Below are positions 2,113 to 61,043 of a stretch of 64,000 bases of DNA, one piece after another. Positions within the stretch are counted from its first letter, which is position 1, and every line of letters begins with the position of its first letter. The DNA comes from Pelagomonas calceolata (taxonomy: Eukaryota; Sar; Pelagophyceae; Pelagomonadales; Pelagomonadaceae): positions 3,410,001 through 3,474,000 of the forward strand of contig CAKKNE010000001.1 in the NCBI GenBank assembly GCA_918797485.1, read 5' to 3'. The notes under the pieces were generated by a model. That model ran no database searches. It was not told where the DNA came from and worked only from the letters and a program-made list of their open reading frames with translations. The position numbers and the translations under genes were made by a program.

Positions 2113-2311
2113 GACTCCGCAGCGCGTCTCCGCAGCTCCGCGTGGCACTGCTGTGTGCTGAGTGTCACGGCAAGAGCTGCGGCGAGGCGTACGCAAGCAG
2201 GGAACCCCGCAGCACTGGCAAACCTTCACTACGACTCGATTCCCACGCCTGCTTCCCGGTTGCACCGCTACGCTACGCGTACGAGCAGCTTCAAGTGCGC
2301 TCGAGCTCGTC

Positions 2312-2334
2312 CTAGTGCGTTTATGCACGCTAGC
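2312..2334. promoter_or_regulatory. Divergent-promoter palindrome, copy 1
   Basis: CTAGTGCGTTTATGCACGC followed by TAGC lies in the 2113-2518 gap between divergent genes (minus gene starting at 2112, plus gene starting at 2519). It is the first of 17 copies of the CTAGTG...CGCTAGC element seen in this window. Nothing else is recognisable in this 406-bp gap. Confidence 0.6.
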
Positions 2335-2518
2335 CCCGTTTTTTGAGGCTAGCTTTTTTACCACGCGGGAGTTACGGCTCGGCGAATCGCTTCAACTCAT
2401 CGTCATTCCGCCGTGAATTCAACTGCGATCGCTATTCGCGACTACGGGTGGAACCTGGAAGTCTGAAACCCCCAGGCTGGGCCCTGGTCATAAAATCGTA
2501 CGCTCGCGACTCATAACG

Positions 2519-3193
2519 ATGGACCTCGACGACGGCATCACCTGCCACGCCGCCGACGACCCCGCGATAAAGAACGAGCTGCGCCGCGCCTGGATCGCGG
2601 ACCGCCTCGACGAACGCCTCGGCGAGTTCGGCCAGACGCACGCCGTCGACGTCGTCTGCGCGACCTGGAACGCCAACGGCAAAGACGTCACGAAGCTAAA
2701 CCTCGACCTCGAACCCTGGCTCCGTTCCCGGTCCGCGCCGGCCGACGTCTACGCGGTCGGGGCCCATTGATCCTTCATGATGCCATCGACGCGACGCCTG
2801 CGCCGACGACGCCGCACGCAGGTCGACGCCGGCGCCGTGCCGACGGGGGCCCCGCCGCGCGCCGTCGCCGCCGCGCTCACGTCGCTTCTGGCCACGCTCG
2901 CGGTCCCCGTGTGCGCTCCCGCGTTCCTGCCGCCCTTCGCGGGGACCGACGACGACCGCATCTCGCAGTGGGCTTTTGACCTGCTCGAGGCGCTCCCGAA
3001 CGCGCATTACAACGCCTTCGTCTACGTGTTGGCGTTGCTGCGCGAGGTCCTTGCGAAGTCGTGGCAGACGACGGCGGCGACGCGCCTCGCGTCCGTCGCA
3101 AGGGACGCGTTCCTCCCCGACGGCGAGGCCGAGGCCGACGCGCGCGATCACATCTTCGCGGCGGTGCGATTCCTACTGACGAGTAATCTTTGA
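2519..3193 (+). pseudogene. OCRL-like inositol 5-phosphatase/RhoGAP gene lacking its middle
   Basis: Exon 1 (2519..2755, 79 codons) starts at ATG and ends inside the beginning of an inositol-polyphosphate 5-phosphatase domain: ATWNANGK followed by PADVYAV, matching the TWNxNG and DxYxVGFQE motifs. Exon 2 (2822..3193) is the C-terminal part of an OCRL/INPP5B-type RhoGAP domain (LLEALPNAHYNAFVYVLALLREVL). Spliced, they make only 202 aa. The catalytic core of the phosphatase, the ASH region and the start of the RhoGAP, several hundred residues in the family, are absent although the frame is kept. The intron carries the introner core sequence. The gene looks internally deleted, or an assembly collapse occurred between intron repeats. 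A functional short product cannot be excluded. Confidence 0.6.
2756..2821 (+). mobile_element. Decayed introner forming an intron in the OCRL-like gene
   Basis: This 66-bp intron runs from GT to CGCAG. It shares the 20-base core GCCATCGACGCGACGCCTGC (2782 region) with the long introner at 38433-38598. The flanking octamers are GTCGGGGC and GTCGACGC (6 of 8 match). The left terminal repeat is not recognisable. Removing the intron keeps the frame. Confidence 0.55.
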
Positions 3194-3246
3194 AACTACT
3201 GGGTGAGTCGTGGCGGTCGCGTGGTGCCACGAATGCCACGAGAACA

Positions 3247-4239
3247 CTAATATGTCCTATAATGCCCCCGGTCCTTGCGACCCCCGAGAAACGCGCCGAC
3301 CGCGAATGCGACGAGTACCGTCAGGAAACTATAGCCGCACGCCGCCGGCGTCGCCGCCTCGCACGGTGGACAGACAGGCTTGGCTGGTGTCGCAGCGCCG
3401 GGCGAGACGGCTGGTGTTGTTTTGACTGCTGATGCCGGCTGCGGACGTCCACCGCCGTACGACGCGGCCCACGCGGCGGCGCCCTCGCCGCCACCCGCGC
3501 GCCGCGCGGCCCGGGCGACTAACCCTTTCGCGGAGTAGAGGTCATGTCGCGTCGTGAGAAATTCGCGGACCGAGGCGAGCTTTCGGTAGCCCGGCTCCAG
3601 GCTCGACACGACGTTTCGCGTCGACGCGTCTTCGCGCGCCTTGCGAGCAGATACTTCGGCCGGCGTCAGGCCCGTGTCCTCCGTGCCAAGATAAGAGAGC
3701 TCGTAGGCCCCCGACGGCTCCGCGCCGGCGGCCCCGTAGACCCAGTCGAAGATCGCCTTCGTGCGGGCGAGGTGGAACTCGCTTGTGATGACGAGGAGTC
3801 GTCTCCAGCCCGCCAGCGAGCAGTGGTCGTTCCGCGAGTAGAACGCGTTGCCGATCGTGTCGAACGACGTCGTCTCGACGAAGACGTCCGCTGAATTAAC
3901 GCCTTCATTGATGATCACCGCCGCCGACGCCGTCGCCTCGAAGACCACGGAGCCGCGCGCGTCGAGCAGCTGCGGGACGTGGGCCGTGCCCGCCGACAGC
4001 GTCAGAATCTTCGGTTTCTTGGCCGCCGCCTTCCACAGCGCCGCGGCCGCCTTGCACCGCGCGGCGACGAAGGGTAGCTGGGCGTCGGGCGCGGGGGGCG
4101 CGCCGCCGCCGAGCACCAGGATGGCGTCTACTCTCAGTAATTTGGCTTCATCGAATGACAGGATCGTGGCGCTCGTTGTGTGCAGCAATACGGCAGCAAT
4201 CACTGTCGCGCGACGCAGTGCGCCCATGATGCAGCCCAT
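3247..4239 (-). CDS. DUF218/YdcF-SanA-like membrane-anchored protein
   Basis: About 330 aa from the ATG at 4239; an in-frame ATG at 4227 is an alternative, and the frame stays open further upstream. A hydrophobic leader (RRATVIAAVLLHTTSATIL) precedes a DUF218-type domain with the family features DAILVLGGG near the start, a central INEGVNSADVFVE-like stretch and RRLLVITSEFHLARTKAIF. A Ala/Pro/Cys-containing linker (KPVCPPCEAATPAACG) leads to a C-terminal membrane segment (FLTVLVAFAVGAFLGG) and a basic tail. In bacteria the family is linked to envelope functions; the role of the eukaryotic versions is poorly known. The gene is divergent from the gene at 4566 and shares the palindrome at 4386. 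Confidence 0.75.
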   Translation of the reverse strand: MGCIMGALRRATVIAAVLLHTTSATILSFDEAKLLRVDAILVLGGGAPPAPDAQLPFVAARCKAAAALWKAAAKKPKILTLSAGTAHVPQLLDARGSVVFEATASAAVIINEGVNSADVFVETTSFDTIGNAFYSRNDHCSLAGWRRLLVITSEFHLARTKAIFDWVYGAAGAEPSGAYELSYLGTEDTGLTPAEVSARKAREDASTRNVVSSLEPGYRKLASVREFLTTRHDLYSAKGLVARAARRAGGGEGAAAWAASYGGGRPQPASAVKTTPAVSPGAATPAKPVCPPCEAATPAACGYSFLTVLVAFAVGAFLGGRKDRGHYRTY

Positions 4240-4385
4240 CTCCTGGATCCGGTGTGTGCTTGTGCCCTGCTTGTTACAACAGCCGTCCCGCTGAGGGGTG
4301 ACGACTCTGCACAATAGATGGCTCGGAATGAGGTGCGCCAAGGCGCGGGGCAGCCCAAATCAGCCGCGGCGCCCGGCGCCGAGAC

Positions 4386-4408
4386 CTAGCGTGCGCAAAG
4401 ACACTAGC
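4386..4408. promoter_or_regulatory. Divergent-promoter palindrome, copy 2
   Basis: CTAGC-GTGCGC-AAAGACACTAGC lies between divergent genes starting at 4239 (minus) and 4566 (plus). It has the long arm AAGACACTAGC and short arm CTAGCG of the recurring element. Confidence 0.65.
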
Positions 4409-4565
4409 AAGACAGACAAGCCCTAAAAAAGCTGCTTTACAACGCCTGTGATCATTAAAAATCTTCGAAAAAGGAGCTGCCGCAGTGCTTTGCAGGCGCA
4501 TCGATCCCTCGGCCATCGCAATCCATCGCTGCCGGCCAGGTTACATCAAGTCCAGCGCCACCAGG

Positions 4566-5751: not shown

Positions 5752-6364
5752 CGCTTTGTCGCCGCTGCTGTCTCTCTCTGCGCGTTCCGCCGCGGTCCGT
5801 GTCTGCGTGGGGCGTCGCGTCGTTTCCGCGGTCCTGCGGCGCTCTCTGCCGTCGGCGCCGGCTGTTCGATGACGGTCAGCCATTGCGGTCGCCCCGCCGT
5901 CGCCGCGCCGGGCGCGCTGCGAGTCAGGTCTGTCCCTCCTTGCTCTGCGCTCCGCTCAGGCGCCGCGGAGGGCTCGGCGCTCTCGCGCAGCCGTCTAGAT
6001 CACGTCTGCGACGTTAAAATTTTGAACTGGCCGGTAGAGGCGCTGCTACGTGCGCAAAATGCCGAGTCGCGCTCGAGCGCTCGAATCGATCGAGCGTCGC
6101 GGGTTTTTGAGCACACGTCTCCGCCGGTTGGAATCTAGGCGCCTCTACTTAGTCGAATTCGCCGAGGAAGTATGGTGGACTCTTGAATGAATTTGGGCTG
6201 GTTTTGCCGAATGCTTGCTCGCGCGCTCGACGCCAGGCATATAGGCCTCCACAGATCATAGACTGTCGCGCAAACAACACCTTTCTATCACCTTTCAGCC
6301 TTGCTAAACGATTCACCATCGCTAACAGCTCACAAGACTCAAAAAGCAGCAAACACAAGCAGCC
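5752..6364. other. Divergent intergenic region without the palindrome
   Basis: A 613-bp gap between SUMO (minus) and the glycosyltransferase (plus). It is less GC-rich near 6180-6360. It has TCTAGATCACG at 5994 and ATCTAGGCG at 6132 but no full copy of the recurring palindrome. I see no gene or repeat. Confidence 0.5.
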
Positions 6365-7550: not shown

Positions 7551-7820
7551 TCAAAGGCCGGGACGCCGCTTCTTCGACGCTTTCTTTGCTTGCTTTTTTG
7601 CGCGATTTTTGTGTTGTTTTTTCATTCGTAATTCATGTAAAGTTTTCGACTGGGTCCCGCCCTTCTTGAGCGCGTTCTTGCGGGACTGGGCCTTGCGGCT
7701 CAGTTGCTCCTGGCGTCTTTGGTGATACTCCTCGTGGCTCCGGACCTCGCGGCTCTTCTGCATTTGGGCGCTGCTGAAGGCGGTCAAGAGCGCGACGAGC
7801 GCTGCGAGGCGGCGCATCAT
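7551..7820 (-). CDS. Small secreted, strongly basic protein
   Basis: 89 aa from ATG 7820 (MMRRLAALVALLTAFSSAQ), a clear signal peptide with likely cleavage after SSA. The mature part is a Lys/Arg/Gln-rich helix (REVRSHEEYHQRRQEQLSRK...) ending in KKASKKRRPGL. The function is unknown; the composition suggests an RNA- or polyanion-binding or structural peptide. It is convergent with the gene ending at 7456 and divergent from the gene starting at 8244. Confidence 0.6.
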   Translation of the reverse strand: MMRRLAALVALLTAFSSAQMQKSREVRSHEEYHQRRQEQLSRKAQSRKNALKKGGTQSKTLHELRMKKQHKNRAKKQAKKASKKRRPGL

Positions 7821-8042
7821 GTTTGTGGCGCTCGTCCCACGCGTGCGCGCCGCTCCGACTCGCGTGCCGTCGGCGTCAGCCGGGCTGCCCACCACCACCC
7901 TGTGGGTCCACGGCTCGCGGCTGCGCGCCCGTCCAGTTACGTGGGTCTGCGAGAGTGCTCTAGCCTGACCCCCTCCTTGGGCTGCCCCTTGGGCTGCCTC
8001 TTGCGAGCAATTACGTTCCGTTTTTCTCGGTTATTTTTTGGT

Positions 8043-8065
8043 GCTAGCGGGCTGTAAGGCACTAG
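8043..8065. promoter_or_regulatory. Divergent-promoter palindrome, copy 3
   Basis: GCTAGC-GGGCT-GTAAGGCACTAG lies between divergent starts at 7820 and 8244. The rest of this 423-bp gap holds nothing I recognise. Confidence 0.65.
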
Positions 8066-8243
8066 AAACAGCGCGAGTTTTGCCCGTCGTCCAAGCTAGC
8101 TATACATCGAGCGGCGTTACGCTGGGACGTGATAATCGCAGCCTTACGACCCATATCGCTGTCCCTCAAAATCTTCGGGCGTGGTTCGGCGCTCACCTAA
8201 TCTCCCACACCGCTGCTCTACAGTCGTACAGCCTTGGGCATCG

Positions 8244-8631
8244 ATGGCGTCCCCGCAGATGTGCCTTGCCGTGTCCAGATAACATAAGCACCACGGTTGG
8301 GGCGGCCGCCGCGAAACGCCGTCGAGGCGCCGCCGCGCGCGGGTCCGCGACCGCCGCGTCACGCAGGTACGTCCGCGTCAAGCGGAAAAACACGACGGTC
8401 TTTCTTAATGTAGAGAAGAGCGACTCCTTCGGCGGCATCAAGGCCAAATTAGCGGAGATTTTAGGCGCCGACGCCGAGAAGATACACCTCTTTACCAGTA
8501 GAGACGAATCGACAGAAACGGTCGACACGGCCTTCGTCGACAACTTCTGCGAGTCCGACGTCGTCGTCTACATGAAAATGGACGGGGACAAGGGCATCGA
8601 GGTCGACGAGCCCCCGAAGCCTAGCGCATAA
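8244..8631 (+). CDS. Elongin-B-like ubiquitin-fold protein
   Basis: Exon 1 is only 17 nt (8244..8260: ATG GCG TCC CCG CAG AT), then a 106-bp intron. Exon 2 is 8367..8631, giving 93 aa. The domain YVRVKRKNTTVFLNVEKSD, followed by IKAKLAEILGADAEKIHLF, follows Elongin-B (VFLMIRRHKTTIFTDAKES..., then a ubiquitin-like alpha helix). Elongin-B pairs with Elongin-C in BC-box/cullin E3 ligases and the elongin complex. The micro-exon is inferred: without it the frame upstream has no good start near the domain, while the ATG at 8244 spliced from GTGCC to ACGCAG is in frame and yields MASPQM-YVRV. A longer unspliced N-terminus (from 8038) is the alternative. Confidence 0.65.
8261..8366 (+). other. Probable intron after a 17-nt first exon
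   Basis: The donor is GTGCCT and the acceptor CACGCAG before GTACGTCC. It has no convincing 8-bp duplication or 15-bp terminal repeats, so introner origin is not supported. Confidence 0.5.
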
Positions 8632-9862: not shown

Positions 9863-10007
9863 GGTTTGCTATCGGCCGCAGCCTTTTTTGGCAGTGCTTT
9901 GCCTGCTTTGCTGGCTTTTGGGCGAGGGGACCGCTTGAACGTATTGCTAAAGCTGCAGCGATATATATTGCTTCGATCCCGTCGGGGTGGGTAAAGCAAA
10001 AAATTGC

Positions 10008-10026
10008 GCTAGGTAACCACACTAGC
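10008..10026. promoter_or_regulatory. Promoter palindrome, copy 4 (tandem context)
   Basis: GCTAG-GTAACCACACTAGC lies upstream of the transporter start (9862, minus) and downstream of the tandem minus gene ending at 10181. This shorter copy suggests that the element belongs to promoters, not only to divergent pairs. The surrounding gap 9863-10180 holds nothing else recognised. Confidence 0.5.
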
Positions 10027-10180
10027 ACATGCTCGAGAGGTCTCCTCCAGCCTCAAGCCGGCCCCAAATCCGATGATAGACGGTGTTCGAACCGTCCTCG
10101 CCCGGCCCCGGAGCGCTCGCCGGCCAACTACTTGGAATTAAGTTAGCCGAAACAGACGAGCCGCGCAGAGGAGCGCCGAG

Positions 10181-10615
10181 TCACTCGTCCTTCTTTTTTT
10201 GCGCCGCCGCGGCCGCCGGCGCCGCGGCGGCCTCGTCCGCGCGCGCGCGCGCCTCGACGGCCTTCACCCGCCGCTTGAGGAGGTCGAGGCCCAAGTACCC
10301 CACGCGTCCCACGACCATCAATAGCACGGACGCTTTCAGGCCCTTGGCGTCCTTCGGGAAGACCCCCAGCATATAATCGCCTCTCAATCTTTTCACGAGG
10401 CGCCTGCGTGGAAATCAGGTGTCGCGCGGCTCCACGTGCGCCATCGACGCGGCGCCGCGCGAGAAGAAATAACTCGCGCAAAGGCCGAAGACGATCGGTA
10501 TGCCCACTAGAAGTGCCGTTTCCAATGGACTGATTTTCTTTGGCGCTTGTGCTCGTGCAGGGCCAGTTGCCTTTGCATGCTTTTTCTCTTGTCTTGCTCT
10601 TACGGCGCTTCCCAT
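10181..10615 (-). CDS. Small single-pass membrane protein
   Basis: Exon 1 (10615..10461) and exon 2 (10403..10181) give 125 aa. A basic N-terminus (MGSAVRARQEKKHAKATG) precedes a membrane segment (LETALLVGIPIVFGLCASYFF). Exon 2 continues RLVKRLRGDYMLGVFPKDAKG, a second moderately hydrophobic stretch (ASVLLMVVGRVGYLGLDLL), and an Ala/Lys-rich charged tail (QKKKDE). Without splicing both halves stop early; splicing at an introner restores one frame. The function is not recognised. Confidence 0.65.
10404..10460 (-). mobile_element. Introner intron, partly decayed
   Basis: On the minus strand the intron runs from GCGCGGCG to CCTGATTTCCACGCAG. The flanking octamers GCGCGGCG and GCGCCTCG match at 6 of 8. 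The right terminal repeat is well kept, and the left (CCGCGTCGATGG) is degenerate. It uses a GC donor. Its removal fuses TTC TC to G CGC CTC, in frame. Confidence 0.75.
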
Positions 10616-10713
10616 TGCGTGTCACGCGACCCCTGTGTGGCGCGCTCGGCCGTGAGTAATATACAAACGATCGCGACGCGTAAGGCTCAAAACGTGGTCG
10701 CAAGGCCCATCGA

Positions 10714-10735
10714 GCTAGCGTTGTAAGACACTAGC
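10714..10735. promoter_or_regulatory. Divergent-promoter palindrome, copy 5
   Basis: GCTAGCGTT-GTAAGACACTAGC is close to the consensus. It lies between divergent starts at 10615 (minus) and 10905 (plus), about 100-170 bp from each start codon. Confidence 0.7.
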
Positions 10736-10904
10736 GCTGCGCACACGCCAGCCTGCATACGCATTGCTGCACGGTGCACAGCCGAAGCGCTCGAGTACAG
10801 ACTCGTAAAGCAGTGCTCGAAACGCTGGAGGACACGTGAGGCGAGCAGGCATCGCTGCAACGCTGGCTCAGGTGTTGCAGCAGCACGCGCACGCTGTGGC
10901 AAGC

Positions 10905-12656: not shown

Positions 12657-13724
12657 CTACGAGTTCCACGCGTCCCCGCAGACGCAGTCGCGCGCGTCGC
12701 CGTTGTCCCGCCGGTTCATCCAGCAGCACGGGCAGACGCGCGACCGCACGCCGTTCATCGAGCGGCACCAACAGATGAGCACCCTCCTCTCCCCCTCCAA
12801 GACCTTGTCGACGGCGTGGAGCCGCCGGCCCAGGTGGAACGTCGCCACACCTAAATCCGGCGTGATCGCGACGTCTTCCTCCAAATCCGGCTGGCCGCGC
12901 ACGCCGCCCAGCAGGAGGTCGCCGCCCGCGAATGATTCCCGCGCGACAAGCCCGACGTTCACCGTCACTTCACTGTCGTCCGTGTGGGGGACGAGCGAGT
13001 CGCGGCCCGACGGCGCGTATCGGAGAACGTACGCATGCCTCCAGTCGAGGGGTGCCCGCGCGCCGGCCGCGTCGACGAGCGTCTCCCTGGGCCACGCCGC
13101 CGCCGCGACCTGCTCGGCGACGATCAGGAGCAGGTCCGCGAGCCAGCCGACGCCCAGCACGTCGAGGTTCGCCCGCGGTCGGGGGTGGCCATCGTCTTCC
13201 GCCGCCGCGTCCGACGCCGCGATGATCGCCGCACAAAAATCGGGTCGGAACAGGTCCAGGGAATAGACGTCGTCCTCTGGCTCGGACAATAGGCCCCAGA
13301 AGCCGTTGGTCTTCGGCGGTTGCCGCAACGCGTCTGCGATGCCGGCCCCCGGCGCCCAGCCCAGTGCCTTGGCCACCCTCGGGCTCACGACGTCGTCGAC
13401 GCGCCAGGTCGCGGCGTCGCGCAGCGCGTCCAGGGCTTCCGGGTGCTTCGCGGCCATGGCGTCGCACTCCCGCCGCGCGTCCAACCGCTGCGCACGAACT
13501 TTCGCTAGCACGGCTTCGAGCGCGCTCTCCAAGGTTTCTACGTCTTTATCTTGCCACCGTCGCAGGTAGTCCGGGTAGTGGTCGAGGCCCCACAACGCGT
13601 GCTGGAGAAATGCGAGCTCTGCCGCCGGGTGGCCCGTCCTTATTTTCTCATTGATGCGTCCCGTGATCCTCGCGCTGCTACTCACGTGGCGCGACATCAA
13701 TGCGACGGGAAGCAGACGCCGCAT
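12657..13724 (-). CDS. Prolyl-4-hydroxylase-like 2OG-Fe(II) oxygenase
   Basis: 355 aa from ATG 13724; an internal ATG nine codons later is possible. The N-terminal ~190 residues have no recognised domain. The C-terminal catalytic core shows VLRYAPSGRDSLVPHTDDSEVT (HxD iron ligands), ESFAGGDLLLGG, and VATFHLGRRLHAVDKVLEGERRVLI (third His and the 2OG-binding Arg). It ends with a Cys-rich tail (CPCCWMNRRDNGDARDC). Members hydroxylate prolyl or other residues. It is convergent with the double oxygenase, with stops 78 bp apart. Confidence 0.78.
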   Translation of the reverse strand: MRRLLPVALMSRHVSSSARITGRINEKIRTGHPAAELAFLQHALWGLDHYPDYLRRWQDKDVETLESALEAVLAKVRAQRLDARRECDAMAAKHPEALDALRDAATWRVDDVVSPRVAKALGWAPGAGIADALRQPPKTNGFWGLLSEPEDDVYSLDLFRPDFCAAIIAASDAAAEDDGHPRPRANLDVLGVGWLADLLLIVAEQVAAAAWPRETLVDAAGARAPLDWRHAYVLRYAPSGRDSLVPHTDDSEVTVNVGLVARESFAGGDLLLGGVRGQPDLEEDVAITPDLGVATFHLGRRLHAVDKVLEGERRVLICWCRSMNGVRSRVCPCCWMNRRDNGDARDCVCGDAWNS

Positions 13725-13893
13725 GCAGGGCTCAGGCTGGCTTGGCCTGCAGCCTCTTTTTAGGCTGGTCGAACTGTCCGCAGCGATGCAGCAAGCGGTT
13801 CTGCCGGCAAGTGGGGCCCAGAAGACAGCCTGTAGGCTGCGAACGGACGCTGTTATAAAGCACGATGGCGCCAGAGCTGCGAGGAGCTTTTGG

Positions 13894-13908
13894 AGCTAGT
13901 ATGTCTCT
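13894..13908. promoter_or_regulatory. Half copy of the divergent-promoter element
   Basis: GCTAGTATGTCTCTG, the long arm only, lies in the 342-bp divergent gap 13725-14066. No matching CGCTAGC arm follows. Confidence 0.35.
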
Positions 13909-14066
13909 GTCACTCCTTCCTCCTCCCGCAAAGTGGTGCCACTGATTAGGCGCAGAGAACGGCATTCGTCCTTCCTTGCTGTCGCAAACACGCGAATCAT
14001 CCATCATTCATTCTGCGTGCTCCGCACAAGTCCTGCTCTCCCACAGCTGATCGCATCAGTGCATTA

Positions 14067-15056
14067 ATGGCGGATGGTGATCGATGGCAGGGCAGGCCTG
14101 CACAGCCTTCAGCCATGCAGCGTGCATTTGATGATGCCACGAACCGACTGGCGCGGCGGCTCGAGGCGGAATCGATCTCTGCGCCGCCGCCGCTGCGCAG
14201 GCCGTCGCGCCTGATGCTTACTGGAACGCCGGCGCCGGGCCGCCTCGAGGCCGCGGCTGCCAATAAAGATCTCGACGAAGCGCGCGCGTTGTGCGGGACC
14301 GCGTGGACAAATCGCTTGGCGGCGCTACTGCCGGACGGCTGGCGCTTAGGCCCTTGCGTCGGGGTTGGCGACGGCGAGCGGCTTGAACCGCCGTGCTTCG
14401 ACAGAATTGAAAGCACCGCGCTCGTTTCGCTCCTTGAATTGCCAGCAATTGCGAGGAGTCCAGAACTCACTCCATTCGAGAATGGGTTGAGTTCTGGACT
14501 CCTGCTCAACTTCCTATTCCAGAACGAGGACGATGGCAGAGTCATTTTGGGTCATGACACTAGCAGAAACGAGTTCGCTCTCAGGCCCGGTGAACACTTG
14601 GCCTCCGTGTTTTGTAGATATTCCGGGCTTCGTCGCGATGGTAAAGTCAACGGCCTGCTTTTCGAAACCACCGCCGGTCGCTCTGCACCGCGCTTCAAGA
14701 CGCTGCGTTATACGGACGGGCCAGAAAGATTTATAGAAGCCCCGCCGGGGTTGGCGATCCGCAATTTCTATGGGCGAGTTAGAAAGCTTAGAGCGAGCTC
14801 CTTAAAAAGGCTCCGTATGGCGGAAGCAGATGGAACGGAGTACCGGTTACTCGAGATCTGTTGCCTCGGAGTCGTTTTCGGTCCGCGGACCGCGGCCGTC
14901 TGGCGCCCAGGCACACCTGTACGTTTCTCAGACGCCGCCACGGCCCGCGCGCGCGCGGTAATTGATCTCGCCGACGGGGATGGGCCGCTCGGCCGGCTGC
15001 CCGAGGTGTTGGTCCACCTCGTGCTCGCTTTCGCCATCGACCTCTTCCCCGCATGA
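14067..15056 (+). CDS. Protein of unknown function, possible jacalin-like fold
   Basis: 329 aa from ATG 14067. The middle (LRPGEHLASVFCRYSGLRRDGKVN, then GLLFETTAGRSAPRFK) looks like the beta-strand repeats of jacalin-related lectins, where a strand on carbohydrate contact is followed by a line such as LxFxTxxGR. This is a weak likeness. No signal peptide or membrane segment is seen. A perfect 16-bp hairpin stem lies inside the coding region at 14454-14503 without breaking the frame. Confidence 0.6.
   Translation: MADGDRWQGRPAQPSAMQRAFDDATNRLARRLEAESISAPPPLRRPSRLMLTGTPAPGRLEAAAANKDLDEARALCGTAWTNRLAALLPDGWRLGPCVGVGDGERLEPPCFDRIESTALVSLLELPAIARSPELTPFENGLSSGLLLNFLFQNEDDGRVILGHDTSRNEFALRPGEHLASVFCRYSGLRRDGKVNGLLFETTAGRSAPRFKTLRYTDGPERFIEAPPGLAIRNFYGRVRKLRASSLKRLRMAEADGTEYRLLEICCLGVVFGPRTAAVWRPGTPVRFSDAATARARAVIDLADGDGPLGRLPEVLVHLVLAFAIDLFPA
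14454..14503 (+). repeat. Near-perfect 50-nt hairpin inside a coding region
   Basis: The outer arms AGGAGTCCAGAACTCA and TGAGTTCTGGACTCCT are exact reverse complements. The inner arms CCATTC and GAATGG also pair, separated only by two-base mismatches. The encoded peptide is SPELTPFENGLSSGLL. Confidence 0.8.
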
Positions 15057-17535: not shown

Positions 17536-17706
17536 CTTTTAGCGCTGGTCCCTGGACTGATCTCGGAGCTGGTCACGTCCAGATCGCGCGCAGCGATGCG
17601 GCGAACTGGGAGGCGTGAGGAAGGTCTTGGCGGCGAGCTCCCCAGTGGCACAGGCGGTGCGTAGGGCGCCCGTCAATGCCTTCTTCACGACGCGAGAAGC
17701 TAGGAG

Positions 17707-17731
17707 GCTAGCGTCTATAGACATACTAGTG
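17707..17731. promoter_or_regulatory. Divergent-promoter palindrome, copy 6 (variant)
   Basis: GCTAGCGTCTATAGACATAC followed by TAGTG lies in the 492-bp gap between divergent starts at 17535 and 18028. Both CTAG arms are present and the centre is a TCTATAGA palindrome. I see nothing else in the gap. Confidence 0.55.
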
Positions 17732-18027
17732 TTCCAACTCGCAAATCGCCTCCACAGCCTCGCAGCGAGACACAGGCGCACAGTTCGCTACAGACCCGCG
17801 AGGCTGCACGAGTGCTTCGGCCCTGCGCGCAGGGCGACCCTCTGCTGGTTTTACGGTGGGCGAGGCTGCCCACACTATGGTTGTGGTGTGAGTCCCCTCG
17901 CCACCCGAAACCGCAAGCCCGACGCAAGCGCTGCCCCGAGGCTGCCCGCGGGCCGCACGCCAGCCGCCGCGCCGCGGGGGGACCGCGCGCCGCACGGACG
18001 AAGCACACAGACACCGTAATATACAAT

Positions 18028-20489: not shown

Positions 20490-20513
20490 GCTAGTGTCTT
20501 ACTGGACGCTAGC
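20490..20513. promoter_or_regulatory. Divergent-promoter palindrome, copy 7
   Basis: GCTAGTGTCTTAC-TGGA-CGCTAGC is one of the best matches, inverted relative to copy 5. It lies in the 450-bp gap between starts at 20299 (minus) and 20750 (plus). I see nothing else in the gap. Confidence 0.72.
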
Positions 20514-22395: not shown

Positions 22396-22606
22396 CTTTG
22401 CCGCGTCGACGGCTTGTTCCCGACGGCGGCGCTGTGGAATTATCTGTGAGCAGGGTAGGGCTGATACTCCACAGACGTTCGCGGCGACCTCGACGTGTGC
22501 AGCAGCGATGTCTGCTTACTCAGAGCGTTCGTGAGAGGCGCAGCCAGGCTCAGTCTTCGCTGTACGCCTCTGTTAAGACCGTTTTTTGGTCGATCGAGCA
22601 TGGAGA

Positions 22607-22630
22607 GCTAGCGTGTCGACACACACTAGC
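22607..22630. promoter_or_regulatory. Divergent-promoter palindrome, copy 8
   Basis: GCTAGCGTGTCGACACAC followed by ACTAGC has two symmetric CTAG arms around a TGTCGACA centre. It lies in the 434-bp gap between divergent starts at 22395 and 22830. I see nothing else in the gap. Confidence 0.68.
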
Positions 22631-26312: not shown

Positions 26313-26517
26313 GTGTATAGTACCGACCCTATGCGCCCCCCGGGAGACCTGTTTGGCAGGGATTGACAGGATTCCACTGGCATGGCCATGGGCGGCTCGT
26401 CGGCCGCGAATTAAAAAAAAAATTTTTCGGCCCCCAGTACGTGTCCCATTGATCTCTTTGGACCATTAGCTTACTGAACGATACTCAAACGGCTGCATGC
26501 GCGTTCCGAGTTTGCTT

Positions 26518-26542
26518 GCTAGTGTCTTTACATGCCGCTAGC
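26518..26542. promoter_or_regulatory. Divergent-promoter palindrome, copy 9
   Basis: GCTAGTGTCTTTAC-ATGC-CGCTAGC lies in the 486-bp gap between starts at 26312 (minus) and 26799 (plus). An A10/T5 tract lies at 26413-26429. I see no other feature in the gap. Confidence 0.7.
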
Positions 26543-29633: not shown

Positions 29634-29767
29634 AGTTTTGTAAAGTCCTGTGGATACTTCGTTCTGGTGGTTTTTAGACAACTCATTATCACATATTCGT
29701 CGGTCGGCGGGATCGGAGGTAGGGGTCGCCGCCCGGTGACCGCGAGACGCGGCACAACGCGCGACCC

Positions 29768-30019: not shown

Positions 30020-30276
30020 GTCTTGTGTGAATAATCGATGGAACTACTCTCAGAGCGGTGCGTGCGTAGCTTGCCGCAGCGCTTAAGCTGCTCGAGGACG
30101 CACGCGGTGCACTCGTGAGCTGGGCCCACTGTCTCTGCTCTGCTGATGAGTGCTCTCCAGCGCAGGAAATGCAGTCTTATCCTTCTGAGGGCAGTGCGGC
30201 TGCGAGAAGACTGCCAGCCGGCCTCTGGAGTTAAGAGGCGCCAATTACAGCGTACACAAGACCTTTTTGGTGGGTT

Positions 30277-30300
30277 GCTAGTGCCTTACAGCACGCTAGC
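30277..30300. promoter_or_regulatory. Divergent-promoter palindrome, copy 10
   Basis: GCTAGTGCCTTAC-AGCA-CGCTAGC lies in the 477-bp gap between starts at 30019 and 30497. I see nothing else in the gap. Confidence 0.7.
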
Positions 30301-39277: not shown

Positions 39278-39438
39278 GCTGGCTGCGGCTGCGGTTTTTT
39301 GGCTTTTGACGTCGCAGCGGTGGCGTCCTGCCGGTAAGTGTAGCGCGCAGCACTGGTCGCTACCACACAAGACCCCTTGCAGCCTCTGAGGCGGAGGATG
39401 CCGGACACAGCCTTGTCGCTTTGCAAAATTTTGCGACC

Positions 39439-39460
39439 CTAGCGACCGTAACACACTAGC
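39439..39460. promoter_or_regulatory. Divergent-promoter palindrome, copy 12
   Basis: CTAGCGACC-GTAACACACTAGC lies in the 357-bp gap between starts at 39277 (minus) and 39635 (plus), almost midway. Confidence 0.7.
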
Positions 39461-39634
39461 AATCTACTTTTGCGCTTTTTTGGGCCTGACTATGCACAAA
39501 ACCGCCTCTGCTATGCATTAAGGGACGCAGACGTGCGACTCATTCTTTCGGTATCGAGACCCGCAGCGCTACGCCGTCGACGAGGCCCCAAAACAGCACA
39601 TTCGCCTCAGGGCCAAAAAGCAGCATATACAGAG

Positions 39635-41569: not shown

Positions 41570-41595
41570 GCTAGTGTGTCTTACGCACCGCTAGC
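41570..41595. promoter_or_regulatory. Divergent-promoter palindrome, copy 13
   Basis: GCTAGTGTGTCTTAC-GCAC-CGCTAGC lies in the 320-bp gap between starts at 41416 (minus) and 41737 (plus). An extra CAGCTAGCAC lies at 41454-41463. Confidence 0.7.
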
Positions 41596-43174: not shown

Positions 43175-44425
43175 TCAACCCTGGAACCAGAACTCCCGTT
43201 TGAGGATGCCCAGGAGCGACTCGTCCGCCACCGAGGCGTCGCCGTGCCGTTCGTGGTGCTCGGTGAGATACCTGACGAGCGACGACCGGTCCCGCCGCGT
43301 CGTGTACAGCGTCGACAGGAGCAGCTCCTCGACGAAGCGGTAGCTGTCCGACCCGCCCCTGACCCAGCTCGCGAGCTCCTCGGAGTCGAGCTCGGTGCCG
43401 CTTTTGTTCGCGATGGCGAAGCAATAATTCGCGCAGACCTTTCCGACGGTTTCGGCAAAGTCTCGAACCGTCGTCGCCTGTGCGTAAATCAACCAGTGTC
43501 GGGTGCGCGATAATCTGATTTATGCACTGGTCGTCGCCTCGGTCACGTCGAGCGTGGCGACCGGGTGGCCGTCCTGCCAGGGTTCCTCGGTCTCGGCCAA
43601 GAGGCGGACGCTCTCCTCGACCCCCGTGGGGATGGCACCGAGGCGCTGATCGACGAGCGCCTCCAGCAAAGGTAGCTGGCTCGTCTTGCCCCGCATCCCC
43701 ATCGCTGTGAGGTAGGTTGCCCCCACCAAGGACCCGAGTTCGCGTCGGCCGAGGCGGCCGTCGGTGCCCCCACGCAGTAATAAATCGACCTTGTTCTGCG
43801 TGCGCCCGTCCTCCATGACCACGTGGTAGGCCCAGAACTCCTCGAACGTCACGACGCCGTCGCCGTCGCTGTCGAGCAGGTCCATCATCAACGCCGCGTG
43901 CTCTGAATCGCCACCATTCCTGGCGACGACCGTCTCGAGCACGTCCTGCGTGAAGCCTCTAGCTCCACCGTGCACGGCGGTCCCGCGCTCGGCGCTGAAC
44001 TGCTTGAGGGCGTCGTGCAGCTTCACGAGCGACGGGTGCGAGTGGAGCGAAATATCAGAGCCCGCGCCCTTGCCGTCGTAGTTTCTCGCTATACCTGCTT
44101 TGGGCGCCCGGTCCACGTAGGCGAGAAAAGTCTCACCGGCCTGCCGCTCCGGACCATCAAAAATCTCGCGATGGCACTCGTCTTTTATTTCTGATGGCCG
44201 GTGCAGCGGCGTGAGCAAGGTCGTCAGCACGGCGGTGAGCACGCGCACTGCTCTAGCCTCGGCCGGGTGCACGACGGCCGGGAGCTTTGCGTCGCTGCTG
44301 CTGCTGACGCCGCGCAGCAGTCCGGGGCAGCCGCGGTGGACCGTCTGCCACAGTGGTGCCCGCCGGCGCGACCAGGCGCGCATGGTCGGATGGCAGCCAA
44401 GCTGCAGCCGCAGGAGCGCTCGCAT
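43175..44425 (-). CDS. EF-hand protein with mitochondrial-type presequence
   Basis: Exon 1 (44425..43538) and exon 2 (43477..43175) give 396 aa. The N-terminus is Arg-rich and amphipathic (MRALLRLQLGCHPTMRAWSRRR), mitochondria-like. A canonical EF-hand loop DSDGDGVVTFEEF binds calcium. The remainder is helical, possibly with a second degenerate EF-hand in TDGRLGRRELGSLV. Exon 2 adds another helical pair (LDSEELASWVRGGSDSYRFVEELL). The function is unknown beyond calcium binding. It is convergent with the BRO1 gene (19 bp between stops). Confidence 0.75.
43478..43537 (-). mobile_element. Introner intron with exact 8-bp duplication
   Basis: GTCGTCGC occurs on both sides (plus strand) without mismatch. 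The 52-bp element is CTGTGCGTAAATCAAC ... ATCTGATTTATGCACTG on the plus strand and is inserted opposite to the gene. On the gene strand the donor is GC, and the acceptor CGCACAG comes from the element's other end. Splicing gives DVTE-ATTVRD in frame. Confidence 0.95.
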
Positions 44426-44676
44426 CTGTCAAAATCTAATGCCTCGCGGCGGTTGGGCAGCCTCTCGCAGCCATAATTCTAAGACAGCAGCCTGCCATTG
44501 CCCAAGCTTCCCATTGCCCCGCACGTAAAAGCCCCCGACGACACGAACAGTCGTACGCCAAAGAGGCGGTAGAAGCCCGGATAAAAACAGCTGCGGTGTT
44601 CCACGATGCTACACCAAACACCTCAACAACCAGGCCGCCTGTGATCGATGATTGGAGAGCTTGAATTGGTCCACGT

Positions 44677-44684
44677 CCGCTAGC
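44677..44684. promoter_or_regulatory. Half copy of the promoter element
   Basis: CCGCTAGC, the short arm only, lies in the 550-bp divergent gap 44426-44975. No long arm is seen. The gap holds no gene I can support. Confidence 0.3.
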
Positions 44685-44975
44685 CCCGCGCCGTTCCACA
44701 CGGTTGGCGTCCCGCACCTCTTCGATCCATCGCCTAGGATTGCTGCGGGCACGCCTTCGGACCGTCGTTTGACGGCACTGCTCTCCCAGCTCAACCCTTC
44801 ACCCACGCTGTGGCGGGCCCCGTCGCGTGAGGAACGCTGAGTGCGAGGGTCGCAACAGCGATTTTAGACCCTCAGGAGGCTCCCCAGCCAGTTTCATACA
44901 AAAAAAGCCCCGCCTTGGGGTGCGAACGCGAGCGCGTGCGAACGCGGACACCAACGACCACGATAACCAGCAAAA

Positions 44976-52300: not shown

Positions 52301-52518
52301 CACGAGCGCCGTGGCTTCCTCCTCGACGGCTTCGCGCTGCTATGGGCCGTCTGCGGGTCCCCTCCTGTTTCAGGAGTGTGAGGGCGTTTGTGGCACGCTC
52401 GCTCGTCTATATCACGTTTTGTGTGATACGTGAGATACCTAATAATGTATGCAAGCGGCCGCAGCCGCCACAGCGGGGCCACAAAAGGCCTCGCTACAAT
52501 GCTCGACCCTGATCGTGA

Positions 52519-52541
52519 GCTAGCTCATGTACATACTAGTG
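52519..52541. promoter_or_regulatory. Divergent-promoter palindrome, copy 14 (variant)
   Basis: GCTAGCTCATGTACATACTA followed by GTG lies in the 518-bp gap between starts at 52300 and 52822. It has both CTAG arms around an ATGTACAT palindrome. Nothing else is seen. Confidence 0.55.
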
Positions 52542-52821
52542 ATGCACGCGTCTCCTTATTTTAAGCTTCAAGGCACGTCTCCACGAGACGCCTGCGGAGA
52601 GGTGGCCTCGCGCGGGCACGGGTGCCGCCCATCGGCGGGCGCCTCACAAGCTTTGAAACTCATCTCCTAAAACCGCTCTGCGATTGCGCCTCAGAGAAAA
52701 CCGGTGCATATATTCGTATCACTGTGCTGTTCTACGAAGCTGGTGCGAGTTCCACGTCCAGCGGCAGCGCTGCGCTCGAGATTAGGGCAGTGCAGTGTGC
52801 AGCTGAGCCACGCGTCGCGCC

Positions 52822-54114: not shown

Positions 54115-54219
54115 GGTTCCGCTCGTGCGTCGTCGTCGCGCGCGAGTAATCGATGCTGCAAAGAGCAGCCTGGGCGCGCCTGTTGTGTGCAGCGGCGTCG
54201 GCCGCGCCGCTTTGTGGTG

Positions 54220-54227
54220 GCTAGCGC
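54220..54227. promoter_or_regulatory. Half copy of the promoter element
   Basis: GCTAGCGC, short arm only, lies in the 428-bp divergent gap 54115-54542. No long arm is found. Confidence 0.3.
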
Positions 54228-54542
54228 TTGGAAGGTGGACCCTTCGGCTTGCGTCTGCGCACTGTTTCTCGCTCCGGGCCCGCTGCACGGGCGAGTTATC
54301 GATGGGAAAAGACGCTCGACGCTGCATGCAGTCCCCGCACGCTGGGCGAAGTCTGCGTCCGTGCTCGCGCACTCGTCGACGCGGCACTGTTCACGGCTCC
54401 TCCGAGCGTGTTTCGGACGAGTGAAACGCCACGTCAACTGCGCGCTGTCACCGCGCGCCGCATACGTAGCCCTTCGCCACACTGCACGTTACTGCAGCCT
54501 CAATCAGTGAGCGCAAGACGCATCAGTGAGAATAAGCAAAAG

Positions 54543-55205: not shown

Positions 55206-55208
55206 TAA

Positions 55209-55351
55209 GTGTGCTTGTATGTCACAGTGTGCTTGTATCCTGTCAGACCCCACTGGTGCGGTACAAGCAGCCGCAAGGACCAATGTCCAGTCAGGGAATC
55301 GCCACTGCCTTGTACAAACAGCCGCAAGGGCCAATGTCCGGCCAGGGAGTC
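55209..55351 (+). repeat. Short tandem repeats in a 3' intergenic region
   Basis: GTGTGCTTGTAT occurs at 55209-55220 and 55227-55238. A 41-nt unit with CAGCCGCAAGG and CCAATGTCC at its centre occurs at 55260-55300 and 55311-55351 (51-bp period, about 6 differences). A GA microsatellite follows at 55378-55391. Confidence 0.75.
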
Positions 55352-55448
55352 AAGTTGGGGCTGCCCGGAAAATAGTAGAGAGAGAGAGAGAGCCACTTAT
55401 TGAGCCCACCCCCAGGTAGTACGGACCCCGAACGCTTCATATAGTAGG

Positions 55449-55471
55449 GCTAGCGTCGATACACATGCTAG
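55449..55471. promoter_or_regulatory. Promoter palindrome, copy 15 (tandem context)
   Basis: GCTAGCGTCGATACACATG followed by CTAG lies in the 466-bp gap between two plus-strand genes (EFG1-like ending at 55205, EF-Tu starting at 55672). This is one of two copies not between divergent genes. Confidence 0.5.
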
Positions 55472-55671
55472 TCATTTCCTCTCCAAGACTAAGTCTTAGT
55501 CGCTCCCTCATTACGCCGCCGCTAAAGCAGCAGTTGTGCGATTGGTGCAGCGAAACGCATCGCTATAGATACGCGATACCGTCGCTGACAATTTTCAGCC
55601 ACCGGCGACAGTAGAAGCAGCGCATCGCCACGCCAACCAGAGACGCATAGGCGCATCGCCACGCGAAAACC

Positions 55672-58342: not shown

Positions 58343-58351
58343 CGGAATCGG

Positions 58352-58571
58352 ATCTCTTGCACTAGATAAAGACACTCCGACCTGCCTTTCGCGTCGGCAG
58401 GCGTCCGACGGGGCTGCCCCAGCTAGGCAGAGGCTGCCTGTGCGGCGTTTTCGGATGCGCAGCGTGATGCTCCGATCGCTTGCGCCCTGCGAACGACGCG
58501 TGCGGCCGTGGGACCGCGACGGCGCGTGGCAGCTCGGAATCTCTCGATCTCTTGCACTAGATAAAGACACT
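58352..58571. repeat. Pair of identical 25-bp direct repeats
   Basis: A 25-base block with CTTGCACTAGATAAAGACAC at its core is identical at 58352-58376 and 58547-58571 (period 195 bp). The second is part of the promoter palindrome. Confidence 0.8.
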
Positions 58572-58574
58572 AGC
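58554..58574. promoter_or_regulatory. Divergent-promoter palindrome, copy 16
   Basis: GCACTAGATAAAGACACTAG followed by C lies in the 372-bp gap between starts at 58342 and 58715. It has the long arm AAAGACACTAGC with a variant short arm. Confidence 0.6.
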
Positions 58575-58714
58575 AAACTCGGCTTGTGCCGGTGTCCTAG
58601 CTCTATTTACGGCTAGCAGCGATCAGGAGCGGCCCGGGTATATTCATCGCAGCCGCGTTTTGTGCGGACAGCCCGCGCTGCGCCAGACCTGCACCCTCAG
58701 CAGAGCACAGAGCC

Positions 58715-60142
58715 ATGAGCCACTTCGCCCCGCGGCACGACGCTGCATCGCTGGGCACCGTCGGCGTCAAGATCGACGTCGTAAATGGGTTATCAGTAAA
58801 AGAGGCCCACGCCAAGATCGTCGACGAGCACGGCCGGACCCTGGCCAAGAACGACAACGTCAAGAGCGTCGGAGACACGCTTTCATTAGATGCGCAGCCC
58901 CTCCAGTTCGAGGCGCTCGCATCGCTCCAGGGCCCGCTCAAACTCGAGATCCGCGAGCCTGGTAGACTGTACGGCTCGACGGTCGCGTCGTGCACCCTAC
59001 CACTAGACGCCGTGTTGTTACCCTTCGAGGCCGACGTGGAGCTGCCGCTCCAGCCGAAGGGCAGCCTCAAGGCGACGATCTACTTTGCGGATCGACGGCC
59101 GCTCTATGGCTTGGACCTGCGCGCGGCGGCGGCGCGCGGTCGCAATGACGTCCCGGCCGTCGTCGCCGCGTGCTGCGCCTGCCTCGACGCGCTGCCTCCA
59201 GCGAAGCAGCGCGGGCTCTACCGCGTACCGGGCGACAACGCGGAAGTATCAAGGGTGAGGGACGCCCTCGACGCGTCCAGATCTTTTGAGGATGCCTTGC
59301 GAGTCGTTCAAAGCGCGGAGCCAAGTGTAGTTGCGTCGGCGCTCAAGCTCTACCTTAAAGAATTAACGCCCGCGGTACTACGGTGCTCGTCGCGGGCTTA
59401 TGCCGCGTTCACGGCCTCGCAATCCCCATCAAAGCTGCGCGACGCCGTCAGACTATTACCGCCCCACGCGCACTCAACAACAAAGCACCTCTTCGGACAT
59501 CTACGCCGCGTCGCCGACCAGAGCGAGGAGAACAAGATGACGCCGGGCAATCTGGGCGTCTGCTTCGGACCGACGCTGTGCCACGGCGACGACGATTTGA
59601 GTAGCATGGACGCGCACAACGCTATTGTACAAGGTTTGGTGGAGCACTTCGACAGCGTCTTCGCTCCCGAAGTTGACGCCTTCGACGCGCACTTCGACGC
59701 CCTTGCAACGGGAGACACGCTCGACAAGGATGGGTTTGAAGCATTAGCCTACGCGCTCGGGTGCTTCCCCGCCGTCGACGCGGACGCGTTCGCCGACCTC
59801 CCGCGGCGTTGTGAGGATGGCCGGGTTTCTAGGGATGAGTGTCGCGCGTGGTGGGCGCGGCGCGGGCGCGCGACGCCGCCTCCCCTGAATGCGGCGTCGT
59901 ACACGATGGTCGCCTTCTTCTTGAATTATGATGAGAGGCGGGCGGGCGTCCTCGACGACGAGGGTTTTGCGGGGTTGTACCAGGGGCTGCTGGACGCTGG
60001 GTATCAGTTAGCGGGGCCCGAGGCGCTGCTGGCGGAGATGGGCGGGACTTCGTTCCGGGACTTCGTGGGGTGGTTCGAGGGGCTCTGCGCCGCGGCTGAC
60101 GTCGACGAGCTGTGCGCGGCGGCGGACGTCGTCGACATTTGA
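58715..60142 (+). CDS. C2-RhoGAP protein with EF-hand-like C-terminus
   Basis: 475 aa from ATG 58715. Residues about 15-130 look like a C2 beta sandwich (VGVKIDVVNGLSVKEAHAKIV ... LKLEIREPGRLYG). Residues about 140-320 are RhoGAP: the arginine finger is in RGLYRVPGDNAEV, followed by VASALKLYLKELTPAVL and ENKMTPGNLGVCFGPTL. The C-terminal ~150 residues are EF-hand-like helices without perfect loops (DTLDKDGFEALAYALG; RAGVLDDEGFAGLYQ). It stimulates GTP hydrolysis by Rho-family GTPases, probably at membranes via C2. Confidence 0.86.
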   Translation: MSHFAPRHDAASLGTVGVKIDVVNGLSVKEAHAKIVDEHGRTLAKNDNVKSVGDTLSLDAQPLQFEALASLQGPLKLEIREPGRLYGSTVASCTLPLDAVLLPFEADVELPLQPKGSLKATIYFADRRPLYGLDLRAAAARGRNDVPAVVAACCACLDALPPAKQRGLYRVPGDNAEVSRVRDALDASRSFEDALRVVQSAEPSVVASALKLYLKELTPAVLRCSSRAYAAFTASQSPSKLRDAVRLLPPHAHSTTKHLFGHLRRVADQSEENKMTPGNLGVCFGPTLCHGDDDLSSMDAHNAIVQGLVEHFDSVFAPEVDAFDAHFDALATGDTLDKDGFEALAYALGCFPAVDADAFADLPRRCEDGRVSRDECRAWWARRGRATPPPLNAASYTMVAFFLNYDERRAGVLDDEGFAGLYQGLLDAGYQLAGPEALLAEMGGTSFRDFVGWFEGLCAAADVDELCAAADVVDI

Positions 60143-60172
60143 TGTGACTTATTTTGTGTGTAATATGTTCTA

Positions 60173-60877
60173 TTAATAGAAGCCCACGTGCGCCCAGAAG
60201 AAGACGATGTGGCGGACCATCTCCGGTGGGAGGCCTAGCTTGGGGACGAAGATCGCGACGAGCGCGTCGGCGTGCTGCTTCTCGTGAGCCTTGAACCCGC
60301 CCGGCGTGTCGTGGATCTTCTGGAGGTAGGGGTTGTGGAAAGGTGGCTTCAGGTAGCTCATGTCGGCGCCGGCGCGTAGTAAAATCGGCGCGACGCGACG
60401 AGCGGCCTTGAATCCACAAATTCCCGGCTCCCTATACCAGCACTCTGCGGGACCTCGAGGGTCAGGATCCTTAAGAGGCGACCTTCCATGGCAGTTTTTC
60501 GTGGGGCGCGCGCCCGCATTAAGAAGCAATATCGCGATTCTGTCTGCTGCATAGCGATGAAGTGTCAAATAATGCAACGGCGTGTTGCCGTACTCGTTGG
60601 CCACAGTCGCGTCAGCACCCGCCTCAAGAAGAGCCTCGACAACACCGACATAGTCTTCTCTGCCGGTGTCCACACCACTGAATCCGCACGCCTCGAAAAG
60701 CACTGGCATGCCACGCTCGTCTGGGCTCTCGGGGTCGGCGCCCGCGGCCAGCAACTGGCGCACAACATCGGCCCGCCCCTCGAAGCACGCCCTTTGGAGC
60801 GCCGGAAATTGTGGTCTTTCCTCCTCAGGGAGACGCGCCCAGGTACCGTCAGACTCGTAACCGTCTGAATCCCACAT
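60173..60877 (-). CDS. Ankyrin-repeat protein
   Basis: 234 aa from ATG 60877 (MWDSDGYESDGTW). Three to four ankyrin repeats: FPALQRACFEGRADVVRQLL with AAGADPESPDERG, VEALLEAGADATVANEYGNT with PLHYLTLHRYAADR, and APILLRAGADMSYLKPP. The C-terminus has helices ending FWAHVGFY. It is a protein-interaction scaffold with unknown partner. It is convergent with the C2-RhoGAP gene (30 bp between stops). Confidence 0.8.
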   Translation of the reverse strand: MWDSDGYESDGTWARLPEEERPQFPALQRACFEGRADVVRQLLAAGADPESPDERGMPVLFEACGFSGVDTGREDYVGVVEALLEAGADATVANEYGNTPLHYLTLHRYAADRIAILLLNAGARPTKNCHGRSPLKDPDPRGPAECWYREPGICGFKAARRVAPILLRAGADMSYLKPPFHNPYLQKIHDTPGGFKAHEKQHADALVAIFVPKLGLPPEMVRHIVFFWAHVGFY

Positions 60878-61023
60878 TTTGATTTTTAATTCCCCACAGC
60901 ACTCACAATTCCAGGCCGGCCGACCGCCAGTGATCGCCTCCGATTAAAATGCGTCTGATTCCTTGCTCATAGCCCCCCCTAGGTCTACGCCGCGGCGGCG
61001 CACGAGTTTTAAGTCAGTCGTGG

Positions 61024-61043
61024 GGTAGCGGTAAGACACTAGC
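61024..61043. promoter_or_regulatory. Divergent-promoter palindrome, copy 17
   Basis: GGTAGCGGTAAGACACTAGC has a perfect long arm and nearly intact short arm. It lies in the 333-bp gap between starts at 60877 and 61211. Nothing else is seen. Confidence 0.65.

Follow-up and report, generated by a model that had tools for sequence, protein, structure and literature searches.

Why does the same long palindrome recur between the divergently oriented genes of the alga Pelagomonas calceolata, and what might it do there? The question is raised by a 64-kb stretch of contig C1 (C1:3410001-3474000, called here the window), where an earlier note had listed 17 copies and had proposed a dimeric factor and a bidirectional core promoter. 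We have analyzed the window together with 200 kb of contig C2, in all 264 kb or about 0.8% of the genome, and have taken some counts over the whole genome (32,445,274 bases, 8 contigs). The available text on the genome of strain RCC100 describes six nuclear, one plastid, and one mitochondrial contig and a GC content of 63%, and mentions introners (PMC9481584). The proteins of the window are eukaryotic in type, e.g., a kinesin, an ABCB-like transporter, a RhoGAP, and a UBC plus PUB protein. We consider it fairly probable, from the arrangement of its copies, that the palindrome is a genome-wide, lineage-specific promoter element, i.e., a bipartite, orientation-independent site of about 27 bp for a probably dimeric general regulatory or pioneer factor.

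The element has the consensus TTGCTAGTGTCTTACAGGCCGCTAGCT, is roughly 24-27 bp long, and consists of the arms GCTAGTG and CGCTAGC in inverted arrangement, each of which reads GCTAGYG in the inward direction. A search with the pattern GCTAGYG...CRCTAGC, with no more than one mismatch in the arms and a CTAG-to-CTAG distance of 14-20 bp, gave 11 sites for the window and 41 for the C2 stretch, compared with means of 0.5 and 1.5 in dinucleotide shuffles (10 each). Matches with two mismatches were no better than chance (6 in the window and 22 in C2 vs. 11 and 32 per shuffle) and were excluded from use. We also built a profile hidden Markov model (HMM) trained only on 30 other C1 loci, which had been preselected by a strict pattern. 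It found 51 sites in the 264 kb at a cut-off of at least 10 bits, where shuffled sequence gave 0.2 (five shuffles), and 52 sites at 9 bits or more.

Over the whole genome, CTAGYGN{6,12}CRCTAG has 4,268 sites vs. 86 for the reversed control (the pattern reads alike on both strands, and each site is counted on both), and GCTAGYG...CGCTAGC has 2,108 matches vs. 16. The exact left arm GCTAGTGTCTTAC occurs 1,741 times (0 reversed). It is followed by CGCTAGC after 0-6 bases in 1,321 cases and after 7-36 bases in just 17 (0 reversed for both), and the spacing of the arms is therefore bounded. A direct-repeat control (309 matches vs. 24 reversed) had to be discarded since GCTAGC is its own reverse complement, and most of the 100 matches listed were the palindrome itself. 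Outside the profile matches of at least 9 bits, the 264 kb contain 17 further CTAG pairs 14-20 bp apart, of which 8 are divergent, 4 tandem, 2 convergent, and 3 coding; since convergent and coding places are among them, the looser pairs include chance ones.

The distance between the CTAG cores is 18 bp in 30 of 52 sites and 16-19 bp in 47 of them, and the asymmetric core TCTTAC is nearly fixed even though it was no part of the pattern that selected those sites. Conservation fades 2-4 bp beyond the arms. The 31 of the 52 profile sites that have the 18-bp spacing hold 38.7 bits of information; 15.4 of these belong to the eight letters of the two CTAG cores, which the pattern fixes. The remaining 20 positions hold about 23 bits, a value biased upward because the sites were picked by the profile, while 13.3 bits are needed to find 52 sites in 264 kb. 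This excess calls for a large composite reader or for two readers. A/T tracts of at least 5 bp lie beside the element in 0.54 flanks per site (48 sites), compared with 0.08 elsewhere in the same divergent gaps (319 places). At about 100 bp from the element, and also at about 120 bp before the ATG, the base composition shifts toward more C and less T, which suggests that the transcribed leader may start there. The other positional k-mers outside the element amount to a weak excess of CAGCA, CACTG, and CTGCA at 140-175 bp, uncorrected for multiple testing.

Genes were called with a 5th-order phase-aware HMM of our own, which was trained on long reading frames and did not use the palindrome as an input; it called 155 genes, 134 of them with an ATG. 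Of 59 divergent gaps, 36 contain a site of at least 10 bits (10/18 in the window, 26/41 in C2), as do 12 of 35 tandem gaps (1/5 and 11/30) but only 1 of 59 convergent gaps (0/19 and 1/40); p is 3e-13 (Fisher) for divergent vs. convergent and 2e-5 for tandem vs. convergent. A stricter set, in which both genes have at least 200 aa, the relevant ends are called, and sites reach 9 bits, gave the same order (20/30 divergent, 8/21 tandem, 1/37 convergent). One of the 51 sites falls in coding sequence. At 9 bits or more, a copy lies within 500 bp upstream of 73 of the 134 called starts and within 500 bp downstream of 12 of the 149 called stops. The element is enriched upstream of starts and scarce at 3' junctions and in coding sequence, as expected of a promoter element, and the enrichment over shuffled sequence and the scarcity at convergent junctions on which the earlier note had staked its proposal were both borne out. 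Its statement that no copy lies in coding sequence also holds in the window for profile matches of at least 6 bits, and none of these lies in the 19 convergent gaps of the window.

The gaps of 76 starts contain a copy, a single one for 74 of them, and for 63 it lies 100-300 bp from the ATG. In the 28 divergent pairs that have both ATGs called and an element with no more than one mismatch in its arms, the ATG lies at a median distance of about 210 bp on either side (middle half 166-248 bp), and none of 10,000 random placements put the element as centrally between the two ATGs. Its orientation is independent of gene direction: 23 sites point one way and 29 the other, and 8 of 14 tandem sites agree with the gene. 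The genes downstream are mixed, their Pfam matches including RabGAP, WD40, ankyrin, cyclic phosphodiesterase-like, and sulfotransferase domains. At 1e-5, 5 of 10 genes with the element and 8 of 10 genes without it had a Pfam match; the former were the 10 longest suitable genes among the 24 listed, the latter came second to eleventh in length among 25 suitable genes, without the longest one of 2,142 codons, and no conclusion can be drawn from this comparison because the gene sets differ in length.

These results allow the original list to be revised. CTAG-bearing sequence is present at all 17 listed places, with altered arms in some. Eleven of them (2312, 4386, 8043, 10714, 20490, 22607, 26518, 30277, 39439, 41570, and 61024) score 11.6-27.1 bits, and three more are a two-armed variant of the same geometry, with a CTAGTATG arm at 17707 and 52519 and a CTAGCATG arm at 55449. 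The copies at 10008 and 58554, with CTAG cores 13 bp apart, are weak, and so is 33313, which has no two-CTAG pair. The earlier note had counted 19 divergent pairs, all but one with at least an arm. Our gene caller finds 18, of which 10 have a match of at least 10 bits, 3 more a variant or degenerate two-CTAG element, and 5 neither. These five are 5752-6364, 13698-14114, 33251-33777, 44384-44975, and 54115-54542.

Copies outside this genome were found in a scan of bacterial and archaeal assemblies, which returned five contigs with the element in four marine metagenome-assembled genomes labelled Spirochaeta (two), proteobacterium, and Desulfobacteraceae. Three of the five contigs were compared with the whole P. 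calceolata genome, and stretches of CAJWEZ010000013.1 (L051) are 90-96% identical, of NZGT01000013.1 (L052) mostly 83-94%, and of CAJWHT010000032.1 (L054) 94%; these matches indicate mis-binned, Pelagomonas-like nuclear DNA, i.e., eukaryotic contamination of bacterial assemblies. In CAJWEZ010000013.1, a 24-bp element is identical to its genome copy while indels of 1 bp and 3 bp lie just to one side (a single case). NZGT01000013.1 has one palindrome before each of four consecutive same-strand genes (ATG called in two) and a fifth two-CTAG pair, with 14-bp spacing, upstream of a minus-strand gene. This layout indicates that the element serves tandem promoters and that it occurs in a relative whose identity is mostly 83-86%. 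Together with the occupied tandem gaps, it agrees with the view of the earlier note that the palindrome marks promoters generally and not divergent pairs as such. Alignment blocks that start at L052 2199 and 4288, the same places as two palindromes, hint at conservation. A dispersed repeat of about 157 bp (39/47 among the matches listed) is present at L052 299-455, L052 2050-2172, and L040 2412-2575, and in these three cases a palindrome lies 6, 26, and 38 bp beyond its end, with the repeat on the side that faces away from the gene downstream.

How might such an element work? Its location, symmetry, single copy, indifference to orientation, bounded spacing, and A/T tracts are compatible with a site at which a bound protein opens the promoter region shared by both neighbors. 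Each GCTAGYG arm would accommodate one DNA-binding unit, with the two units bound to opposite strands, and the same protein complex would also read the CTTAC core. A single complex, beside A/T tracts, would occupy the middle of the interval between two start codons, or a place upstream where there is one gene only; the bound factor would keep the promoter nucleosome-free, and polymerase II could then initiate about 100 bp from the element, on one side or on both. The inverted arms suggest a dimer, in keeping with the dimeric factor of the earlier note, and the variable spacing suggests a flexible one. Several points weigh against such an opening site: the gene calls over the 264 kb are our own HMM calls and not the published annotation; variable spacing with an asymmetric core is unusual for a simple rigid dimer; the excess of A/T tracts is partly common to the 24 divergent gaps without the element, whose centres show 0.29; and a match of at least 10 bits is absent from 23 of the 59 divergent gaps, so the element is not obligatory.

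The closest competitor is the core promoter of the earlier note, read here as an element that would be bound by or partly replace the basal machinery and fix divergent starts at set distances, as a bidirectional equivalent of TATA/Inr. The presence of the palindrome before over half of the called starts, its symmetric position between divergent starts, the single copies, and the mixed genes would be expected of such an element, but the spread of the ATG distances would not, nor would the empty divergent gaps, and besides the adjoining A/T tracts only the weak k-mer excess 140-175 bp out is seen. The proposal fared less well in our analysis than the other parts of that note, given the variable ATG distance, the composition shift about 100 bp away, and an orientation untied to the genes, and we regard it as unlikely; the element resembles a site that opens chromatin farther upstream more than one that sets the start itself. 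Ordinary regulons usually cover less than half of gene starts. An ordinary transcription factor that acts conditionally (light, cell cycle, nutrients) would here need a very large regulon: only part of the promoters carry the element, and the 161 sites with the CTAGTATGT arm form a variant class of the kind that paralogous factors with different gene sets should give, but more than half of called starts with mixed functions makes this improbable, more so than the core element.

Two further readings are less likely still. A mark of replication origins, of insulators, or of chromatin boundaries that lies in promoters by coincidence could show no orientation bias, A/T tracts, and one copy per gap; insulators or origins might also sit in convergent gaps, but 1 of 59 of these has a copy and 37 of the 51 copies lie between divergent genes, which leaves this reading very improbable. 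The last is that of a mobile-element remnant, in which the footprint of a miniature transposon or of an introner would have spread into promoters. It would suit the thousands of similar copies and their asymmetric core, the genome does hold introner-like introns and the dispersed repeat of about 157 bp, and the test for a 3-bp duplication immediately beyond the CTAG cores gives 0.229, slightly above the 0.173 of random pairs (standard deviation 0.029), although the comparison includes outer letters of the arms. However, homology in the 100-bp flanks of 48 sites is limited to one pair, the 8-bp duplication is at random level at four offsets, and the 3-bp one is random or below at three of the four; conservation ends shortly beyond the arms, promoters have one copy each, and the length of the spacer varies. 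The flanks of the copies being unrelated, the element is not a mobile element, and we rejected a transposon or introner footprint on unrelated flanks and target-site duplication tests; we give this reading almost no credence. A viral origin was also tried and rejected, two patterns having no match in the viral collection, where near records may be left out. An Rfam search for an RNA hairpin or known RNA gave no match in the window.

A bolder reading goes further. It is possible, if rather doubtful, that one long and highly specified DNA word forms the main promoter address of thousands of genes and is read by one lineage-specific factor, which might have a paralogue that reads the CTAGTATGT class. 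Promoter specification would then come closer to one master site than to the customary combination of short motifs, and each site would contain more sequence information than its location in the genome requires. In addition, being long, common, and well defined, the element should predict promoters and gene starts from sequence alone, and it could serve as bait for its putative binding protein.

The copies of the window are collected in the table, which keeps 16 of the 17 listed; 33313 was dropped, and a single arm at 13895 was added as doubtful.

Copies of the palindrome in the window (positions in the 64-kb stretch; scores from the profile HMM)
Feature	Position	Strand	Gap	Basis
Palindrome class I, CTAG-CTAG 18 bp	2312..2334	+	divergent 1990-2518	profile 13.8 bits
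Palindrome class I	4386..4410	-	divergent 4172-4565	profile 16.8 bits
Palindrome class I	8043..8066	-	divergent 7818-8366	profile 21.1 bits
Degenerate two-CTAG element, 13-bp spacing, doubtful	10009..10025	.	tandem 9863-10180	sequence only, no profile match >=6 bits
Palindrome class I, 16-bp spacing	10713..10735	-	divergent 10373-10904	profile 18.3 bits
Single class II arm GCTAGTATGTCTC, doubtful	13895..13907	+	divergent 13698-14114	sequence
Palindrome class II, CTAGTATGTC arm	17707..17730	-	divergent 17536-18027	profile 7.1 bits
Palindrome class I	20490..20513	+	divergent 20300-20816	profile 27.1 bits
Palindrome, class I arms, GTGTGTCGACAC core	22606..22630	-	divergent 22279-22829	profile 11.6 bits
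Palindrome class I, 19-bp spacing	26516..26542	+	divergent 26235-26798	profile 26.0 bits
Palindrome class I, upstream of same-strand gene	30275..30300	+	29634-30522	profile 25.4 bits
Palindrome class I, 17-bp spacing	39438..39462	-	divergent 39278-39634	profile 17.2 bits
Palindrome class I, 20-bp spacing	41570..41595	+	divergent 41417-41736	profile 12.3 bits
Palindrome class II, CTAGTATGTAC arm, 16-bp spacing	52519..52540	-	divergent 52330-52821	sequence
Palindrome class II-like, CTAGCATGT arm, upstream of same-strand gene	55449..55472	-	55206-55671	sequence
Degenerate element, one good arm GCTAGTGTCTTT, 13-bp spacing	58554..58575	-	divergent 58343-58714	profile 9.9 bits
Palindrome class I, second arm altered, 14-bp spacing	61024..61045	-	divergent 60362-61210	profile 14.6 bits

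Class II pairs the CTAGTATGT arm with the partner CGCTAGC and has 161 sites genome-wide vs. 1 reversed; in the window it is represented by 17707 and also by 52519, whose partner departs from the pattern. Among the 17 long-spaced pairs (7-36 bases), a further arm is found close by in six, the spacer of one is a plain 7 bases, and the other ten have an insert of 6, 9, or 10 bp after CTTAC: CTGTAC in five, CCGTAC in one, CTGTAAGTAC in three, and a related sequence of 9 bases in one. The insert variants are at separate places (C1:1866233, C1:2185339, C1:3808150, C2:2050196, C3:120249, C4:1042665, C5:3614118, C6:989741, C6:3021533, and C6:3789244).

A de novo search for k-mers in divergent gaps brought out GAGGCTGCCC and the class II arm. 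The shorter k-mer GGCTGCCC is over-represented there (23 vs. 2.6 expected; e.g., 17862, 17938, and 44455), and 4 of the 10 places of its longer form GAGGCTGCCC are in coding sequence. A signal of CGTAGGTACCTACG was rejected as a general motif, as it was traced to one local array; this perfect palindrome forms a small array in a single divergent gap (C2:1191288-1191359). The RNase MRP RNA gene of the C2 stretch (L043 7923-8166, minus strand, 76.8 bits) has no palindrome within 4 kb upstream (n = 1).

The statement of the earlier note that no element with this sequence had been described agrees with the literature that we searched: there is none in the top-ranked papers on stramenopile, microalgal, Aureococcus, and Pelagophyceae promoters, preprints, supplements, and subscription papers aside. 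A search for Pelagomonas with promoter motif found no paper, and the words promoter, motif, and palindrom- are absent from the main text of the P. calceolata papers PMC9481584 and PMC13284251. The literal strings of the element had a sole match in the literature searched, PMC3709272, the topic of which, in the portion available, is diphthamide.

Elements of a similar kind are known in other systems. According to the accessible text of PMC6192621, the CGCG element TCTCGCGAGA of vertebrate CpG-island promoters is palindromic, enriched in housekeeping genes, and activates in both directions. The likeness lies in a palindromic element found in a group of promoters, and an activating role is proposed for the alga by analogy. 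However, the CGCG element has 10 bp and the algal one about 27 bp, the letters differ, and the two arms of the algal element are separated by a variable spacing that contains an asymmetric core. In yeast, the sites of the general regulatory factor Abf1 are bipartite. The available part of PMC9481977 places the sites of such factors (Reb1, Abf1, Rap1) in promoters and connects them with nucleosome-depleted regions and with transcriptional direction. The algal element is likewise a sequence-specific promoter site, whose role would be similar by analogy, but many more of its letters are fixed and one class is found at more than half of called starts.

The pelagophyte introner elements, as outlined in the available text of PMC9481584, lie in genes as introns and have about 210 bp. 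They share with the palindrome a high copy number, shortness, the same genome, and inverted ends in the cases examined, whereas the palindrome is a bare promoter site without shared flanks and without a homologous body beyond its ends. Introner-like introns with inverted ends CTGTGTGGAAATCAA are present in the window at 34596-34702 and 38433-38618, and many such ends are found in the C2 stretch. The accessible portion of PMC8557863 describes a palindromic, promoter-like motif of medusavirus in 22 of 115 divergent gaps and in none of 88 convergent ones. This is again a long palindrome in divergent gaps, here absent from convergent ones, but its consensus GCCATRTGAVKTCATRTGGYSRSG is unrelated to the algal letters. 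A palindromic element of bidirectional promoters is of a known kind, and what is new here, as far as we know, is its sequence, its length, and its reach.

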